NCBI GenBank assembly: GCA_004124875.1
Contig: SCKJ01000007.1
Span: 1 to 64,000, forward strand
Reading direction: 5' to 3'
DNA from: Fidelibacterota bacterium
Lineage (GTDB): Bacteria > Fidelibacterota > Marinisomatia > SCGC-AAA003-L08 > TS1B11
Length of the DNA stretch: 64,000 nucleotides
The notes beneath the pieces were generated by a model. That model searched no databases and was not told the origin of the DNA. It was given only the letters and a program-made list of their open reading frames with translations. Shown here piece after piece: positions 51,991 through 58,645 of the stretch (positions are counted from its first letter, which is position 1; each line of letters opens with the position of its first letter). The position numbers and the translations under genes are program-made.

Positions 51991-52236
51991 ATGACCACAC
52001 TAACAGCCAGCAAACTTCGTACGCGACTGGCGGACACTCTCAACCGTGTCGCTTACGGTGGCGAAAGGATTCTTCTTCAGCGACGCGGCAAGGACATTGC
52101 GGCCATCATATCCACTGATGACCTGGAGCTGTTGGAAAAACTTGAGGAACAGGCGGATCTTCGCGCAATCCAGGCAGCCTTGAAGGAACCCGGAACTGCC
52201 GATTGGGACCAAGTAAAAGGGAATTTAGGCCTTTAA
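51991..52236 (+). CDS. Phd/YefM-family antitoxin
   Basis: 81 aa. The TLTASKLRTRLADTLNRVAYGGERILLQRRGKDIAAIISTDD run (Phd/YefM N-terminal DNA-binding fold) is clear, with an acidic tail. AGGTG lies at 51979. It should bind and neutralise the RelE-like toxin and repress the operon. The unit sits between tdh and kbl. Confidence 0.88.
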   Translation: MTTLTASKLRTRLADTLNRVAYGGERILLQRRGKDIAAIISTDDLELLEKLEEQADLRAIQAALKEPGTADWDQVKGNLGL

Positions 52237-52246
52237 GCCGCTAGCA

Positions 52247-52507
52247 CTCTATCGCGTCGGAATCAAACCTGCGGCCGTGAAGGACTTGAAGCGGATTGCT
52301 CACTCGACGGTTCAACGTGTCGGAAGGAAAATATCTTCTCTGGCGGCGGAGCCGCGGCCTCCAGGCGCTGTCAATCTTAAATTAGCTCAACATGTCTGGC
52401 GTTTGCGCGTCGGCGATTACCGCGTCCTGTATACGATTGATGACGATTTGCTTCTGGTGACAGTAGCCCGAGTCCGCCACCGAAGAGACATTTATCGCCA
52501 ACTGTAA
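52247..52507 (+). CDS. RelE/ParE-type toxin, start codon doubtful
   Basis: The RelE core is clear: YRVGIKPAAVKDLKRIAHST, VQRVGRKISSLAAEPRPPG, HVWRLRVGDYRVLYTIDDD, VARVRHRRDIYRQL. The first strand lies in frame from CTC 52247, but no ATG, GTG or TTG precedes it. GTG 52277 would delete this strand (76 aa product). The toxin may thus be weakened, or start at a non-standard codon. It follows the antitoxin stop by a few bases, and RelE toxins cleave mRNA on the ribosome. Confidence 0.8.
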   Translation, partial: LYRVGIKPAAVKDLKRIAHSTVQRVGRKISSLAAEPRPPGAVNLKLAQHVWRLRVGDYRVLYTIDDDLLLVTVARVRHRRDIYRQL

Positions 52508-52549
52508 TCCCATGTCGTGCTCAGGAAATCTGAGAAAAGGACACCCCCC

Positions 52550-53743
52550 ATGGACACACTGACCCCTCGCCTCACAGCCGAACTCGCAGCTATCCGCGAC
52601 GCCGGCCTCCACAAGCAGGAGCGCATCATTACATCGCCACAGAGCGCCACCATCGCAGTTGGCGGCAGGAAGGTGCTCAACTTTTGCGCCAACAACTATC
52701 TGGGTCTGTCCAACCATCCGGCGCTGATCAAAGCGGCCAGCGAGGGCCTTCAGCGGTGGGGGCTGGGCCTCTCCTCGGTGCGTTTTATCTGCGGCACCCA
52801 GGAAATTCATAAGCAGCTCGAAAGCAAAATCGCCGCCTTTCTGCAGACCGACGACGCCATATTATACGGCAGCTGCTTCGATGCCAACGGCGGCCTGTTC
52901 GAAACCCTGCTGGGACCCGACGACGCCATCATCTCCGATGCCCTCAACCACGCCTCCATCATTGATGGCATCCGGCTGTGCAAGGCGGCGCGCTACCGTT
53001 ATCGTCATGGCGACATGGGTGACCTCGAGACGCAGCTGCGCGAGAGTGCCGCTGCCCGGACACGGCTCATCGCCACCGACGGCGTGTTCTCCATGGACGG
53101 GGATGTGGCCCAGCTGGACGTGATCTGTGACCTGGCGCAGAAGTACGACGCGCTGGTGATGGTGGACGACTCCCACGCCACCGGCTTTTTCGGGCCGACG
53201 GGCAGAGGCTCAGTGGAGCATCGCGGCGTCATGGGGCGGGTCGATATGATCACCTCCACGATGGGCAAGGCGCTGGGCGGCGCCTCAGGCGGCTTCACGG
53301 CGGCCCGGCAGCCTATCGTCGATCTGTTGCGGCAAAGGTCGCGGCCCTACCTGTTTTCCAATTCAGTGCCGCCGGCCATTGTCAGCGCCGCCATCGCCTG
53401 TATCGATATGTTGGCCGGCAGCACCGGGCTGCGCGACCGCCTGGCGGAAAGCACCGCCTATTTCCGCAGCGCCATGAGCGACGCCGGATTCGACATCACG
53501 CCCGGTGAGCACCCTATCGTGCCGATTATGCTGGGCGAAGCCAGGCTGGCCCAGGAAATGGCCGCCGCCCTGCTGGATGAAGGCATCTATGTCGTCGGCT
53601 TCTCCTACCCGGTGGTGCCCAAGGGCGAGGCCCGCATCCGGGTGCAGATTTCCGCGGCCCACAGTAAGGAGCAGCTCGACCAGGCCATTGCCGCCTTTAC
53701 CAAGGTGGGCAAGGCGATGGGGGTGGGGGGAAGTTTGCACTAA
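52550..53743 (+). CDS. kbl: Glycine C-acetyltransferase (2-amino-3-ketobutyrate CoA ligase)
   Basis: 397 aa from MDTLTPRL (GAAAAGGA upstream). ALPHA-oxoamine synthase family: [50 protein letters not shown], and the PLP Lys in [15 protein letters not shown]. It cleaves 2-amino-3-ketobutyrate to glycine and acetyl-CoA, completing threonine breakdown with the dehydrogenase at 50874. The C-terminus ([11 protein letters not shown]) ends in an unusual Gly-rich tail; copies of this 3' end recur at 54287, 55363 and 55509. Confidence 0.95.
53678..53743 (+). repeat. kbl 3'-end repeat, native copy K0
   Basis: GACCAGGCCATTGCCGCCTT followed by TACCAAGGTGGG (53678-53709) is repeated with one change at 54287-54318 and, over a shorter stretch, at 55509-55534. 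Confidence 0.85.
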
Positions 53744-53767
53744 TTATAAAGAAAGACTAAATTAGGC

Positions 53768-54028
53768 ATGCCAACAATTTTACTGGTAAATGGTTGGAGA
53801 TTTTTCTTCTATTCGAACGAGGGCAGCGAACCCATTCATATCCACTGCCAAAAAGGTGACCGGGAAGCAAAATTTTGGCTTGATAGTGAAGAATTTGAAG
53901 TGACTGAGGCATATGGATATCAGCTCTCCCCAAGGGATCGGCGGCAGATCAAAAAAATCATTTTTGAGTATTTCGAGTATATCGAAAATGAATGGGAAAA
54001 GTTTCAAAAGATGAGGAACCCAGGATGA
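53768..54028 (+). CDS. DUF4160 domain protein
   Basis: 86 aa. The signature is GWRFFFYSNEGSEPIHIHCQ, then AKFWL and a C-terminal I..FEYFEYIENEWEKF helix. DUF4160 is a small metal-binding-like (HxHxxC) family usually paired with a DUF2442 gene, as here, a pairing often listed as toxin-antitoxin-like. Overlaps the next gene by 4 nt. Confidence 0.85.
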   Translation: MPTILLVNGWRFFFYSNEGSEPIHIHCQKGDREAKFWLDSEEFEVTEAYGYQLSPRDRRQIKKIIFEYFEYIENEWEKFQKMRNPG

Positions 54029-54270
54029 GCAAAGCGCACATCGTAGAGAATCTGATGATCACTGATGATGAACTGATATTAAAGGTTGATGGCAAGGACC
54101 TGAGTCTAGCCTTGGCCACAGCCTCGCCAAAATTGGCGGCTGCCTCAGAATTAGAGCGATCCACGTATAAAATTTCCCCTGCCGGCTATGGCATCCATTG
54201 GCCCTTAATCGACGAAGATTTATCCATTGACGGCCTGTTACTTGCCACGGAAATCGCCGCACAACCTTAG
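54025..54270 (+). CDS. DUF2442 domain protein
   Basis: 81 aa from ATG 54025 (ATGA overlap). The core is DELILKVDGKDLSLALA, SPAGYGIHWPLIDEDLSIDGLL, typical of DUF2442. It partners the DUF4160 gene. Function is unproven. Confidence 0.85.
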   Translation: MSKAHIVENLMITDDELILKVDGKDLSLALATASPKLAAASELERSTYKISPAGYGIHWPLIDEDLSIDGLLLATEIAAQP

Positions 54271-54286
54271 GCCGCAAGTGCGGTTT

Positions 54287-54345
54287 GACCAGGCCATCGC
54301 CGCCTTTACCAAGGTGGGACGACGGATTGGAGAATTGGGGTAGCT
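54287..54345 (+). repeat. kbl 3'-end repeat, copy K1
   Basis: GACCAGGCCATCGCCGCCTT and TACCAAGGTGGG differ from native kbl by one base. The frame would end [19 protein letters not shown] with TAG, closer to typical kbl ends than the native one. Confidence 0.85.
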
Positions 54346-54346
54346 T

Positions 54347-55339
54347 ATGATTACTGTGCCGACATTATTCATATTAGGAGCTGGGGCGAGCGCGCCATAT
54401 GGGTACCCAACCAGCTTTGGGCTTTGGGAATTTATTGTTGGTAACTATCCAAATGATTCGCATATCCCGCCGGGATACCAACATCCTTTCAAACATTTTT
54501 ACTCTACATATCTCAATGGTCGTATCGAAATCGCTGCTGACAGAGAGCCACTAATCGAGAAACTAGAATTATTCCATGAAACTTTTTTTCATGCGGACCC
54601 ATCAATTGACCGATTCATTTCCCGAAATAAAAAGTTTGAAAAATTGGGAAAGAAGGCAATACTTACCATGCTGTTTCATGCTGAACAATTCAGTGCCTTG
54701 CCTGAAACCATGGCAAATAGAGAAAGTGACTGGATAATCTATTTAATGCAAAAAATGACTACAAAAATTGTAGTACAAGACGATTTTTCAAGATTCAAAG
54801 AAAATGATGTCTCCTTCATAACGTTTAATTATGACCGTTCGCTTGAACACCTATCTTACAATTTTCTGTCAAATTCGTTCAGCGAACTCCCCACGGCAGA
54901 CATCGTTGAGGCAGTAGAAAGCCTAGAGATCTTGCACGTCAATGGGATACTCGCACCCCTTGATTGGCAGAATATCAAGGGTGTAAAACAGCCATATAGA
55001 AAATCACTGAAGACGGTAGATATCGATTCTCATGTGAATAATATTCAAATCATTTTTGATAGTCGACAGGATGATACTACCACGGAAATTGAAAGAAAAA
55101 TTAAATCTGCAGAAAACATATACTTTTTAGGGTTTGGTTATGCAGACGAGAATATGAAACAGTTGGGATTCCCAGAAATATTAGAGGCGCACCAAACAAT
55201 TTATGGAACCGCAAAGGGTCTAACATCAACTCAAATCGCCCAAGTAAAGCGGCAATATTTCACCAAACGAGATTTTCGCGAACCGCATTTATATACACTA
55301 AATTGCTTAGAAGTGCTTGAGAATCAGATTTTACGATAG
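54347..55339 (+). CDS. SIR2-like domain protein, candidate NAD-consuming defence gene
   Basis: 330 aa. The N-terminus has the NAD-binding motif TLFILGAGASAPYGYPT. A middle block ITFNYDRSLEHL (FNYD) and EILHVNGIL (HVNG, the catalytic His region), then YFLGFGYADENM, match SIR2-like/SIR2_2 domains used in anti-phage systems (for example ThsA- or DSR-like). No second domain is evident; residues 60-140 are a helical insertion. It is distinctly A+T-rich compared with kbl and the VOC gene. It begins immediately after kbl-tail copy K1 and ends before K2, so it looks like an inserted cassette. Confidence 0.82.
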   Translation: MITVPTLFILGAGASAPYGYPTSFGLWEFIVGNYPNDSHIPPGYQHPFKHFYSTYLNGRIEIAADREPLIEKLELFHETFFHADPSIDRFISRNKKFEKLGKKAILTMLFHAEQFSALPETMANRESDWIIYLMQKMTTKIVVQDDFSRFKENDVSFITFNYDRSLEHLSYNFLSNSFSELPTADIVEAVESLEILHVNGILAPLDWQNIKGVKQPYRKSLKTVDIDSHVNNIQIIFDSRQDDTTTEIERKIKSAENIYFLGFGYADENMKQLGFPEILEAHQTIYGTAKGLTSTQIAQVKRQYFTKRDFREPHLYTLNCLEVLENQILR

Positions 55340-55362
55340 CCAATATCATATTTATCGTTTGT

Positions 55363-55403
55363 ATCGCCGGATTCGCTGAGGTAGGCAGACAGTTTTGGGT
55401 AGT
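55363..55403 (+). repeat. kbl 3'-end repeat, degenerate copy K2
   Basis: ATCGCCGGATTCGCTGAGGT and AGGCAGACAG line up with copy K1; it would read IAGFAEVGRQFW. Confidence 0.45.
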
Positions 55404-55423
55404 AAATTGAGGTCGCCACCAAC

Positions 55424-55505
55424 TCCACACTCACCCCCACCCTGCGTGATGCCCCCTCTCTCCGGAGAGAGGGGGAGTCTGGCGCAGCCGACTGGGGTGA
55501 GTGGA
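55424..55505. repeat. Palindromic MITE/REP-like element with perfect 24-bp palindrome
   Basis: Outer ends CACTCACCCC and GGGGTGAGTGG are inverted. The centre at 55452-55475 is a perfect palindrome (CCCCCTCTCTCC then GGAGAGAGGGGG). It sits between kbl-tail copies K2 and K3. Confidence 0.75.
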
Positions 55506-55508
55506 ATC

Positions 55509-55560
55509 GCCATCGCTGCCTTTACCAAGGTGGGGCGGACGTTTGGAGTGTTAAATTTGA
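55509..55560 (+). repeat. kbl 3'-end repeat, copy K3
   Basis: GCCATCGCTGCCTTTACCAA and GGTGGGG recur. The frame would read [16 protein letters not shown], close to typical kbl ends. Confidence 0.8.
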
Positions 55561-55605
55561 ATGATCAGTTTCAGGCCACGGATACCAGTGCAGGAGAACG
55601 ATATA

Positions 55606-55992
55606 ATGACTGATACACAGCCCAAGGGACTTTCAACCATCGGCCAGATCGCCGTGACGGTGAAAAATCTCGATAGCGCCATTGAGTTTTACCGCGACAG
55701 CCTCGGCATGGCGCTGCAGTTCCAGGTGCCGGGGATGGCCTTCTTCGACTGCGACGGTGTGCGGCTGATGCTCAGCCTGGCGGAATCGCCGGAGTTCGAC
55801 CATCCCGCATCCATCATCTACTTTAAGGTGGACGATATTGCCGCCCAGCATGCGGCCATGACGGATAAGGACGTAAAGTTTGTCGCGCCACCCCACCTTA
55901 CCGCCGACATGGGCAGCTACGAGCTGTGGATGGCCTTCTTCAATGACCTCGACGGCAACACCCTGGCGCTGATGAGTGAAGTGCCAAAATAA
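55606..55992 (+). CDS. VOC (glyoxalase/bleomycin resistance) family protein
   Basis: 128 aa from ATG 55606 (AGGAGA upstream). IGQIAVTVKNLDSAIEFYRDSLGM and GMAFFDCDGVRLMLSL, then FKVDDIAAQHAAM and MAFFNDLDGNTLALMSEVP show the paired beta-alpha-beta-beta-beta units of VOC enzymes. Substrate is unknown. It directly follows the kbl-tail cassette region. Confidence 0.9.
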   Translation: MTDTQPKGLSTIGQIAVTVKNLDSAIEFYRDSLGMALQFQVPGMAFFDCDGVRLMLSLAESPEFDHPASIIYFKVDDIAAQHAAMTDKDVKFVAPPHLTADMGSYELWMAFFNDLDGNTLALMSEVPK

Positions 55993-56054
55993 TGGGCGGC
56001 AAACCTGCCGAAAAATCGGGCGAAGCGATGGCCGCCGTGATGTTCCCGTATCTC

Positions 56055-56083
56055 TTGACATACCGCCCGTTATCGCGTACGCT
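56055..56083 (+). promoter_or_regulatory. Sigma70-like promoter giving a possibly leaderless antitoxin mRNA
   Basis: TTGACA (56055-56060), a 17-bp spacer and TACGCT (56078-56083) precede ATG 56089 by only 6 nt, so transcription would start at or near the start codon. Confidence 0.45.
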
Positions 56084-56088
56084 ATGCT

Positions 56089-56325
56089 ATGAAATCGATC
56101 AGCGCCACAAAAGCCCGGGAACGCCTCTACCGCCTGATGGACGAAACCGCCGAATTCCACGAGCCGGTTCTGGTGACCGGCAAAGGGAGCAATGCCGTCC
56201 TTCTGGGGGAGGATGACTGGCACGCCATACAGGAGACACTCTATCTGCTGTCCATCCCGGGCATGCGGGCATCTATTCGTGAGGGTCTTGACACCCCTCT
56301 TGAGGAGACCGAGCCGGAACCGTAG
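56089..56325 (+). CDS. YefM/Phd-type antitoxin, orphan
   Basis: 78 aa. SISATKARERLYRLMDETAE, FHEPVLVTGKGSNAVLLGED and WHAIQETLYLLSIPGMRASI are canonical YefM. YefM genes normally precede yoeB, but no YoeB toxin follows; the next frame is an unrelated lipoprotein. It may be an orphan antitoxin protecting against YoeB-like toxins, or a relic. Confidence 0.9.
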   Translation: MKSISATKARERLYRLMDETAEFHEPVLVTGKGSNAVLLGEDDWHAIQETLYLLSIPGMRASIREGLDTPLEETEPEP

Positions 56326-56341
56326 CACTGCGACAGATTCC

Positions 56342-57124
56342 ATGCCAAATTCCGGCATGACACCCCCGCACCCATTGAATCGCGCCACCCTGCTGCTGCC
56401 CCTGCTGCTGGCGACCATCGGCTGCGCAGGAGAGCTCTCCGACCCCGAGAAGCAGGCCATCGCTATCCTGGGGCGCGCCCACGACCTGATGGGGGGCCAG
56501 GCGCTCATCGACAGCATCCATACCCTGCAGGTCACTGCGGCTTCAACAGACCCCCGGGGGCCGTTCGTGACCCATATTGCCAGCCGCGCCAACGGTGATC
56601 TGACCATTCGGCAGGTCTACCCCAAGTGGGGCCAACGCCGGGGCGGCATGATCGGCAACCGCTACTGGCGGCAGGAACCGGGCGGTGAAATCGAACCGCT
56701 CAACTGGCAGCTGGCGTATAACATGCGGCTTCTCGATTTTCACCGGCTGGTGATCAACATGGACCAGCGCTTCAGCCGCCTCAAGGCCGAGGAGGAATCC
56801 GTTGAGTTCTTTGGCGTCCCCTCGCTTAAAGTCGTCATGCGGGATGGACGGGGTCTGCCGGCCGCGGCCTATTTCAGCAAGTCGATTGGACTGCCGCTGG
56901 GTATCGAATTTGCCGATGCCGCGGATCCTGATAGCGAACCGCTGGTGGTGAAGTTCGGCATTTGGCAAAATGTGGGCAACGTGATTCTATTCAAGCAGGC
57001 CATTCTACAGGAGAACGATTACACCTACCAGTATAACTATACCAATATCCGCATCAACGGGAACATTGACGCGCTCCTGATCCACCCCGATTCCGTGTGG
57101 GCGCCTCCCGATACTGCCCGCTGA
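56342..57124 (+). CDS. Predicted lipoprotein of unknown function
   Basis: 260 aa from ATG 56342. A leader ending LLLATIGC (lipobox) points to lipid anchoring after Cys. The mature part has an RAHDLMGGQALIDSIHTLQVTA motif, which resembles the N-terminus of outer-membrane lipoprotein-sorting-like or LolA-like proteins, and a C-terminus with QNVGNVILFKQAIL (LolA/RseB-like). Unidentified in detail. It begins 17 nt after the antitoxin stop. Confidence 0.65.
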   Translation: MPNSGMTPPHPLNRATLLLPLLLATIGCAGELSDPEKQAIAILGRAHDLMGGQALIDSIHTLQVTAASTDPRGPFVTHIASRANGDLTIRQVYPKWGQRRGGMIGNRYWRQEPGGEIEPLNWQLAYNMRLLDFHRLVINMDQRFSRLKAEEESVEFFGVPSLKVVMRDGRGLPAAAYFSKSIGLPLGIEFADAADPDSEPLVVKFGIWQNVGNVILFKQAILQENDYTYQYNYTNIRINGNIDALLIHPDSVWAPPDTAR

Positions 57125-57244
57125 TCGATTGCGGCCTATTCGCGCTGGAACTGATCCCTAGTCGGGTGATACCGGCCAGGCGGCCGTCTCCCTGGCGGCG
57201 GGCATACAGCCCGCGACCGATCCCGGTCCGGCGATAGTGGGGAC

Positions 57245-58645
57245 CTAGCTGGCCCCTTCCATGGCCGGCTCTATGGGTGGCTCGGCAATCAAGCTGGAAG
57301 GCATCGACCTGAAAGTCATCAGCAGCCAGGTCACACCTACCGCAGCGCCGCCAACCATCGACACAGCCATGGATATCCAGACAAACTCAAGGGGCCGGTG
57401 CTGCACGAATGTGAAGTAGGCCGCCAGCGGTCCACCAATCGCCATCACCCTTAGCACAGTCACAACCAGAAACGGCAGCCCCTTGCCCATGCCCTGCAAT
57501 ACGCGGGCGCTGATAATGCCAATGGGCGCAATGGGGAACGCCAGGGCGTTGATCCGCAGATAGGACACACCGTAAGCCAGTATTTCGGCGTTCGGCTTGA
57601 ATATGGTCAGCACCAGCGGCGCTAAGGGAATGATGATGGCGGCGAACACCAGACCGTAAATCACCGCCCGGCTCATGGTATACCCAACTATTTTCTTGAT
57701 TTCATCCGTGGCCCCGGCGCCGTGAAACATAGCTACCAGGGTCACGCAACCGGTGGACAGGGCAATGAGCGGTAAAAAGTAGACCATTTCAATGCGACTG
57801 GCGACCTGGTAAGCAGCCACGGCATGATCCGAAAAACTGGCCAGAATCTTGTTGTAGACAGCAGCGCCGGTAGCCATGACCATAAAAGAGAACGAGGCCG
57901 GCAAACCAATTTTAAAGATGGACAGCATGATGATGCTGCTAAACTTGAACGCGCGCAAGTTGAAACTGACATAGCTGGTCCGCCTGATCATGATCAAATA
58001 GATGAAGATCACAAACACGATCGCCTGACTGACCGTAGTGGCGATGGCCGCGCCGCGAACGCCCTGGTCCAAACCAAAGATAAATATGGGATCGAGGATG
58101 ATGTTGAGCACCATGCCCACGCCCAGAATCGTCATGGGCCGGACGGTGTCCCCTTCGCCCGTGAGGATTCCACGGAAAAATCCTGACAGCACCGAGAACG
58201 GCAGTCCGATAGCCACCACCTGGAGGTAACGCCACGACAGCTCGTTAACCGCTCCGGTTGCCCCCAGCATTTCCAGCATGGGGCGGCCGTAAAGCAGTCC
58301 TACGACCATGAGTATGCCCCCAAGGACCACGCCAAGGACGAGGGCATGATCGGCAATGTTGTCGGCTCTGGACTTGTCCCGCCCCCCAATGGCCTGGGCC
58401 AGCACCGCCGTGACGCCACTGGAGAGGCCCATCACCGTGCCGTAGGCGAAAAATACCAACGGCAAATTATAGGCCAGGGCGGCCACGGCATCAGCGCCCA
58501 CCCGGCCGACAAACACCATGTCGACCACGGAGTAGAGCGTGTGGATCATCATCCCGCCGAAGACCGGCAGCGACAATTTCCACAGCGCTTTCCTGGGATC
58601 CGATCTGAATTGATCGAGGCGCGATTCAGCAGCAGCAGCATTCAT
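57245..58645 (-). CDS. MATE family efflux transporter
   Basis: About 466 aa from MNAAAAESRL (or 479 from 58684), with 12 predicted transmembrane helices. LWKLSLPVFGGMMIHTLYSVVDMVFVGRVGADAVAAL and later VRGAAIATTVSQAIVF fit NorM/DinF-like multidrug and toxin exporters. Substrate is unknown. It is divergent from the following SecD. Confidence 0.9.
   Translation of the reverse strand: MNAAAAESRLDQFRSDPRKALWKLSLPVFGGMMIHTLYSVVDMVFVGRVGADAVAALAYNLPLVFFAYGTVMGLSSGVTAVLAQAIGGRDKSRADNIADHALVLGVVLGGILMVVGLLYGRPMLEMLGATGAVNELSWRYLQVVAIGLPFSVLSGFFRGILTGEGDTVRPMTILGVGMVLNIILDPIFIFGLDQGVRGAAIATTVSQAIVFVIFIYLIMIRRTSYVSFNLRAFKFSSIIMLSIFKIGLPASFSFMVMATGAAVYNKILASFSDHAVAAYQVASRIEMVYFLPLIALSTGCVTLVAMFHGAGATDEIKKIVGYTMSRAVIYGLVFAAIIIPLAPLVLTIFKPNAEILAYGVSYLRINALAFPIAPIGIISARVLQGMGKGLPFLVVTVLRVMAIGGPLAAYFTFVQHRPLEFVWISMAVSMVGGAAVGVTWLLMTFRSMPSSLIAEPPIEPAMEGAS

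Follow-up and report, generated by a model that had tools for sequence, protein, structure and literature searches.

The window, by which we mean the whole 64,000-nucleotide stretch of a Fidelibacterota contig analyzed here, carries a SIR2-like gene (54347-55339; ATG start, 330 aa) behind the 3′ end of kbl (52517-53743). The latter encodes a 2-amino-3-ketobutyrate CoA ligase type aminotransferase that is 80% identical in the same genus; its listed start is a GTG, and an ATG at 52550 is possible. Apart from a hairpin repeat to which no strand is assigned, all features described from kbl to position 55992 lie on the plus strand. The tail of kbl occurs in three copies, as determined by repeat alignment. 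Copy 1 lies within kbl (53671-53709), copy 2 (54280-54332) leads to a stop codon that ends 3 bases ahead of the SIR2 ATG, and copy 3 (55509-55548, core 55509-55534) adjoins a VOC/glyoxalase-type gene (55606-55992; Pfam PF00903, E 6.9e-18). Copies 1 and 2 are identical at 35 of 39 bases (53671-53709 versus 54280-54318), and copy 3 resembles either of them less than they resemble each other. Ahead of copy 3 lie a doubtful, very degenerate further tail copy (55363-55416, alignment scores 9 and 14) and the hairpin repeat (55428-55503, fold z -4.2), which is scattered through the genome (15 matches with E of 0.001 or lower, a count that includes the repeat on both of its own strands). A degenerate pattern of the tail core matched three places in the window versus none in 100 dinucleotide shuffles. 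A 17-base half of the core, with two mismatches allowed, matched only the same three places in the 3.02-Mb genome; because the reversed half-core pattern also matched four places, this genome-wide search is no proof alone.

A two-gene cassette separates kbl from copy 2. Its first gene (53768-54028) encodes a DUF4160 protein of the DhiT toxin type (PF13711, E 5.7e-18; the NCBIfam DhiT model gives E 1.4e-4, far under its cut-off), and the second (53992-54270, possibly starting at the ATG at 54026) encodes a DUF2442 protein of the DhiA antitoxin type (PF10387, E 1.5e-12). The two genes overlap, and their domain pair and order are those of dhiTA (PMC8198452). Given this pair between kbl and copy 2, the SIR2-like gene constitutes a second cassette. 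The initial annotation had placed it directly between kbl-tail copies, which is accurate for the flanking copies 2 and 3, whereas kbl itself stands apart from copy 2 by the width of the DUF4160/DUF2442 insert. No integrase gene was found among the open reading frames of 52500-57500. Farther out, a PhdYefM/ParE-type pair (51991-52507) separates kbl from a threonine-dehydrogenase-like gene, and on the downstream side lies a PhdYefM antitoxin gene (56089-56325), with no toxin beside it by name.

The motifs first read from the SIR2-like product are all present, namely LGAGAS (10-15), FNYD (160-163), HVNG (197-200), and GFGYAD (262-267), and include the conserved residues N161, D163, H197, and G200. 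The gene is also as A+T-rich as had been claimed: at 38.8% GC, versus a mean of 55.5% (sd 5.3) over 191 windows of 990 bases, it marks the minimum, with none of the 191 lower. Compared with its 62% identical copy in another genus of the family, dN is 0.31, dS is saturated, and codon position 3 is the most changed, which points to purifying selection. Family libraries are nearly blind to the protein when it is searched as a single sequence. Pfam SIR2_2 reaches 13.7 bits (E 0.066), below the 24.5-bit cut-off, NCBIfam gives no match, and a PDB sequence search gave none either with the protein alone or with an 8-row profile; the PADLOC "SIR2" model matches it at E 8.5e-7. The same genome encodes a second SIR2_2 protein (G000:C17:139602-140042, open frame 409 aa), which scores above the Pfam cut-off.

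Through one scan of species genomes, 233 relatives were confirmed among 309 candidate stretches, and the best 80 of the 233 were retained; relatives occur in many other phyla. A further 16 relatives lie on viral contigs, and 14 plasmid records contain matches at 24 to 32% identity; a tblastn search for close phage relatives in 50,697 phage records gave no match. The resulting 88-row alignment combines 80 of the 96 loci from species genomes and viral contigs with 8 of 11 places in genomes of the phylum. Sixteen loci were left out: nine as duplicates or twins, three because their frame was broken or partial, two as short ends, and two because a script did not find the motif in them. The three phylum places outside the alignment are partial. 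PADLOC model PDLC04087 ("SIR2") matches 84 of the 88 members and Pfam SIR2_2 reaches E 0.001 in 32; the family has no NCBIfam or PHROGs matches save one spurious-looking hit, and our literature search found no paper on this solitary SIR2-like family. Seven members from viral contigs only (L143 and L146-L151) form a separate clade, with HPYG at the motif in six and RPYG in L151.

The distribution of these relatives is not that of a housekeeping gene. Within the phylum they occur in 9 of 245 genomes, the own genome counted; phyla are intermixed on the family tree, consistent with horizontal spread; and the SIR2 gene is A+T-richer than its flanks at 92 of 93 loci (near-duplicates included), with a median GC difference of 9 points. 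A routine metabolic or housekeeping function in this lineage is hardly credible: the gene's location in a metabolic cluster, with kbl and the threonine-dehydrogenase-like gene, would suit such a role, but the rarity within the phylum, the missing homologue at the kbl locus of a relative in the same genus, and the foreign base composition speak against it.

No partner gene recurs. In the 93 loci, near-duplicates included, the largest neighbour family was found in six. Among 140 immediate neighbours (of 141 selected proteins), no Pfam family occurred in more than three and no PADLOC family in more than two, the latter among the 25 listed of 334 matched families. Most neighbour families occur once, and many are housekeeping. 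In L062 and L074 the SIR2 gene follows a kdsB-type gene and precedes pyrG; argS is the next gene in L058, L065, L067, and L081; and L063 has glycine-cleavage genes. Some neighbours are defence-like, with TIR domains in 2/140 and DNA methylases in 2/140. The neighbourhood analysis proposed as a check on a defence role yielded no recurrent defence partner; the description of a one-gene cassette stands. Patchy occurrence, the lack of a recurring partner, and GC lower than in the flanks together establish a solitary, horizontally spread gene. At three Planctomycetota housekeeping junctions (L065, L079, and L074), other small solitary genes, for example of the PD-(D/E)XK_3 type, are stacked beside the SIR2 gene; one of the stacked small proteins is presumably a short helical-bundle-like protein.

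This company bears on a reading in which the gene is a selfish toxin-like gene, causing addiction or growth arrest and travelling with toxin-antitoxin cassettes, with no role against phages. The adjacent insert is indeed a DhiTA-type pair, PhdYefM/ParE/YoeB-type genes surround kbl in the own genome (G000), in a same-genus relative (G001), and in a member of another genus of the same family (G003), and some homologues adjoin PD-(D/E)XK_3 or small solitary genes. Since no antitoxin recurs beside the SIR2 gene in the 93 loci, we consider it unlikely.

The kbl end is a stacked insertion spot. In G003, the 62% identical homologue starts 4 bases past the kbl stop; on a second G003 contig, PhdYefM/YoeB-type and methyltransferase genes come after the same kbl end. 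The 3′ end of a MATE gene is common to the two contigs of this draft genome (C22 and C26; L036 and L037), with 172 of 194 columns identical, which makes them look like two strain versions of one kbl-MATE interval. In G001, the SIR2 homologue is missing from the kbl locus; the kbl end there carries another A+T-rich gene (L035:10726-11466, minus strand; 247 aa, no Pfam match), after which comes a second kbl tail, decayed and about 150 bases long. Remnants of the glyoxalase gene follow kbl or its insert in G001 (score 17 versus a shuffle maximum of 14; 300 shuffles in each case) and in the second G003 contig (18 versus 16), and perhaps also in the first G003 contig, a borderline case whose score of 18 equals the shuffle maximum. 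Twenty-nine kbl loci had sufficient sequence downstream for this comparison, and among them a clear second kbl tail is confined to G000 and G001; the 27 others, none of them from the same strain, have no clear second tail, and scars or different inserts are present at the loci of relatives.

Because the G003 homologue directly follows kbl and the window gene abuts copy 2, the junction between the kbl end and the SIR2 gene is older than the DhiTA-type insert. The close match between copies 1 and 2, together with the weaker copy 3, is the order expected if the SIR2 gene arrived first and the DhiTA pair second. We therefore favor a history, read from these alignments, in which a divergent, solitary SIR2_2-type gene would have been acquired horizontally and inserted at the kbl 3′ end, duplicating the kbl tail, and a DhiTA-type cassette would have entered later between kbl and the SIR2 gene, duplicating the tail again. 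The kbl end may then be read as a record of successive transposase-less insertions of selfish or defence genes.

Whether tail duplication extends beyond this locus was considered in two comparisons. In 600 cross-locus pairs, repeat scores had their 99% point at 13 and their maximum at 19; seven of 92 other SIR2 loci score above 13. Flanking repeats scoring at least 13 were found for 7 of 68 SIR2 genes versus 6 of 138 control genes; at least 16 was reached by 5 versus 5, and at least 25 by 1 versus 2. Flanking repeats were consequently rejected as a family hallmark, since control genes at the same loci score nearly as well. The tail of the upstream gene is repeated behind the SIR2 gene at 2 of 46 loci (L110 and L135) versus 0 of 135 controls (Fisher p about 0.06), L104 narrowly missing; the window was excluded from this test, its nearest upstream open reading frame being the DUF2442 gene. 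A tail duplication general to the SIR2-like family is thus suggestive only.

The tail copies might instead be attachment sites of an integrase-driven element rather than integrase-free target duplications. The repeats coincide exactly with the 3′ end of a gene, a place where some islands insert, and a kbl frame with a new C-terminus is restored by the inserts, in the manner of site-specific elements; neither insert has an integrase, the tail copy in G001 measures about 150 bases and ends elsewhere, and the tail duplicated in L110 belongs to a gene other than kbl. On these grounds, attachment sites are somewhat unlikely, and we retain integrase-free duplication as the preferred reading.

A structure model of the window protein built from the 88-row alignment (mean pLDDT 94.6, pTM 0.92) adopts the SIR2 fold, with a Rossmann domain and a small helical subdomain, and SIR2 proteins lead its matches among solved structures, in agreement with the identity initially assigned. 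Foldseek E-values are modest, the best being 3.2e-4. The VIA Z is 15.1 for the SIR2 protein of SIR2-HerA, 13.7 for ThsA, 13.4 for KomBC, 13.3 for SPARSA, and 13.1 for DSR2, and the best SIR2 defence matches range from 12.5 to 15.1 over 211-259 aligned residues. Structural comparison, which had been suggested as a check, therefore places anti-phage SIR2 NADases among the best matches. Ordinary sirtuins score below these five, at 12 to 13, so close behind that the order of SIR2 proteins by Z is soft. The initial annotation had also described residues 60-140 as an uncharacterised helical insertion. Their helicity is borne out by the model (helices 63-81, 87-93, 95-114, and 129-137); because alignments with known SIR2 chains extend over model residues 1-330, the region is most likely the SIR2-like small helical subdomain, judging from the model, and no unexplained insert.

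The NAD pocket is strictly conserved. N161, Y162, D163, G200, G262, N269, and E113 are present in all 88 aligned members and H197, D88, and W129 in 87; in the GAG nucleotide loop, G11 and G13 are found in 88 and A12 in 87. Position 199 is the exception. The catalytic His of the HG motif, which precedes the Gly, is Asn199 in the window protein. Of the 88 members, 64 have Tyr here, 21 have His, and one has Phe; the two with Asn are the window protein and its nearest relative, the G003 homologue. The loss of the catalytic His or Asn from homologues had been named in advance as evidence against a NADase; the Asn is kept in 88 of 88, whereas the aligned His is absent in 67. The NADase reading accordingly keeps its pocket motifs and fold, but lacks the His at the catalytic position in the window protein and most homologues. 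H146 of KomC falls on position 199 with the family profile (E 9.6e-5; single stretches i-Evalue 0.77 and 1.5) and again with a profile of the 21 His-199 members (E 0.03), so Asn199 would occupy KomC's catalytic-His position, a weak equivalence.

The consequence of this substitution can be read in two ways. Deposited structures include the engineered His-to-Asn active-site mutants KomC H146N and Sir2 H80N, and in SIRT1 the exchange of His for Tyr (H363Y) is reported to abolish activity. The human relative FAM118B uses His and Asn in the equivalent pocket (PMC12700824), and Nezha SIR2 needs both residues, N168 and H227 in V. cholerae (PMC11559045). The protein could be a pseudoenzyme or nucleotide sensor that holds NAD, ADP-ribose, or a signalling nucleotide in its pocket without cleaving it and acts by assembly or through a partner encoded elsewhere. 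The canonical His is gone in most members, the pocket is otherwise invariant in both groups, and the Asn mutants of KomC and Sir2 were used to trap bound nucleotide, as the structure titles indicate. Conversely, H197 could serve in its place, 21 members have the full His, and the switching between His and Tyr along the tree points to an activity common to both. We regard the pseudoenzyme as unlikely, though more probable than the selfish toxin.

Several observations refine this judgement. The tree requires at least 8 changes of state at position 199, 5 of them forced by well-supported branches, and pocket residues are as strictly kept in the Tyr-199 group as in the His-199 group, which together argue against simple decay. 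A covarying substitute for the lost His was looked for in the 88-row alignment, and no column was consistently gained in the Tyr group. With H197 retained almost throughout, a non-His residue at 199 does not establish loss of activity. Either H197, two residues upstream, performs the catalysis, or the pocket binds without cleaving; as His and Tyr members interconvert on the tree, catalysis by H197 is slightly ahead.

Considering the SIR2 fold and the spread of the family, the best single guess for this mobile SIR2-like gene at the kbl end is a one-gene abortive-infection effector, a reading we hold tentatively and with confidence just short of even. Its pocket would bind NAD or a derivative, and cleavage of NAD upon some trigger, with H197 (or the Tyr or Asn at 199) replacing the usual His, would stop the infected cell. 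An NAD-destroying anti-phage role is plausible, although the protein has neither a sensor domain nor a partner, and with the canonical His lost, a non-cleaving pocket protein and a selfish toxin remain its rivals. A broader proposal, that the solitary family performs NAD chemistry or NAD-derivative sensing by a re-tooled site (His to Tyr or Asn, with the upstream His substituting) and also moves as a transposase-less, tail-duplicating cassette at gene 3′ ends, is improbable as a whole. If the protein is active, a SIR2 NADase site can do without the very residue whose mutation universally serves as the "dead" control, and the 233 relatives would add a large group of one-gene effectors barely recognised by curated family libraries. 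If it is inactive, a conserved NAD-pocket sensor spreads like a defence gene.

Among known systems, the best structural match is the SIR2 protein of SIR2-HerA, or Nezha (8wld_R; Z 15.1, 3.6 A, 240 residues, Foldseek E 3.2e-4), from which the family differs in that no HerA-type gene recurs at the 93 loci, the window neighbours being DUF2442 and glyoxalase genes. The Nezha active site uses Asn and His (PMC11559045), whereas the family's His position is Tyr or Asn in most members. ThsA of Thoeris and DSR2 share the SIR2 fold (Z 13.7 and 13.1) but have extra domains in chains of 473 and about 950 residues, while the window protein consists of the SIR2 domain only. The SIR2-domain NADase KomC (8zsf, 9xvc; 264 aa) is the only significant sequence relative with a solved structure (profile E 9.6e-5) and has a similar fold (Z 12.5 to 13.4); unlike the window protein, it acts with partners, as the KomBC complexes in entry titles indicate, and its H146 aligns with Asn199. 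The KomABC (Kongming) layout, with KomA and KomB genes adjacent, is absent from the window, where the neighbours named by Pfam are of other kinds. AbiH (PF14253) matches 1 of 88 members at E 7.2e-4, and the other 87, including the window protein, miss E 0.001. FAM118A/B and the SIR2_2 subfamily likewise have a SIR2 domain lacking the zinc module, and FAM118B ranks among the top Foldseek hits (E 5.3e-4). FAM118 proteins share a conserved Asn and His (PMC12700824), but they keep the His (H206) and form a vertebrate clade.

With respect to the mode of insertion, the direct copies of the target at the kbl end agree with insertion with long target duplication. This process was reportedly described by Nobusato in 2000 for restriction-modification genes of Helicobacter pylori. 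It is known for restriction-modification genes, and defence- or toxin-type genes without a transposase are flanked by long, variable direct target repeats, as they are here (PMC3031569, PMC4978471). The present case differs in what is inserted, either a SIR2-like gene on its own or a DhiTA pair, and in its placement at the end of a gene.
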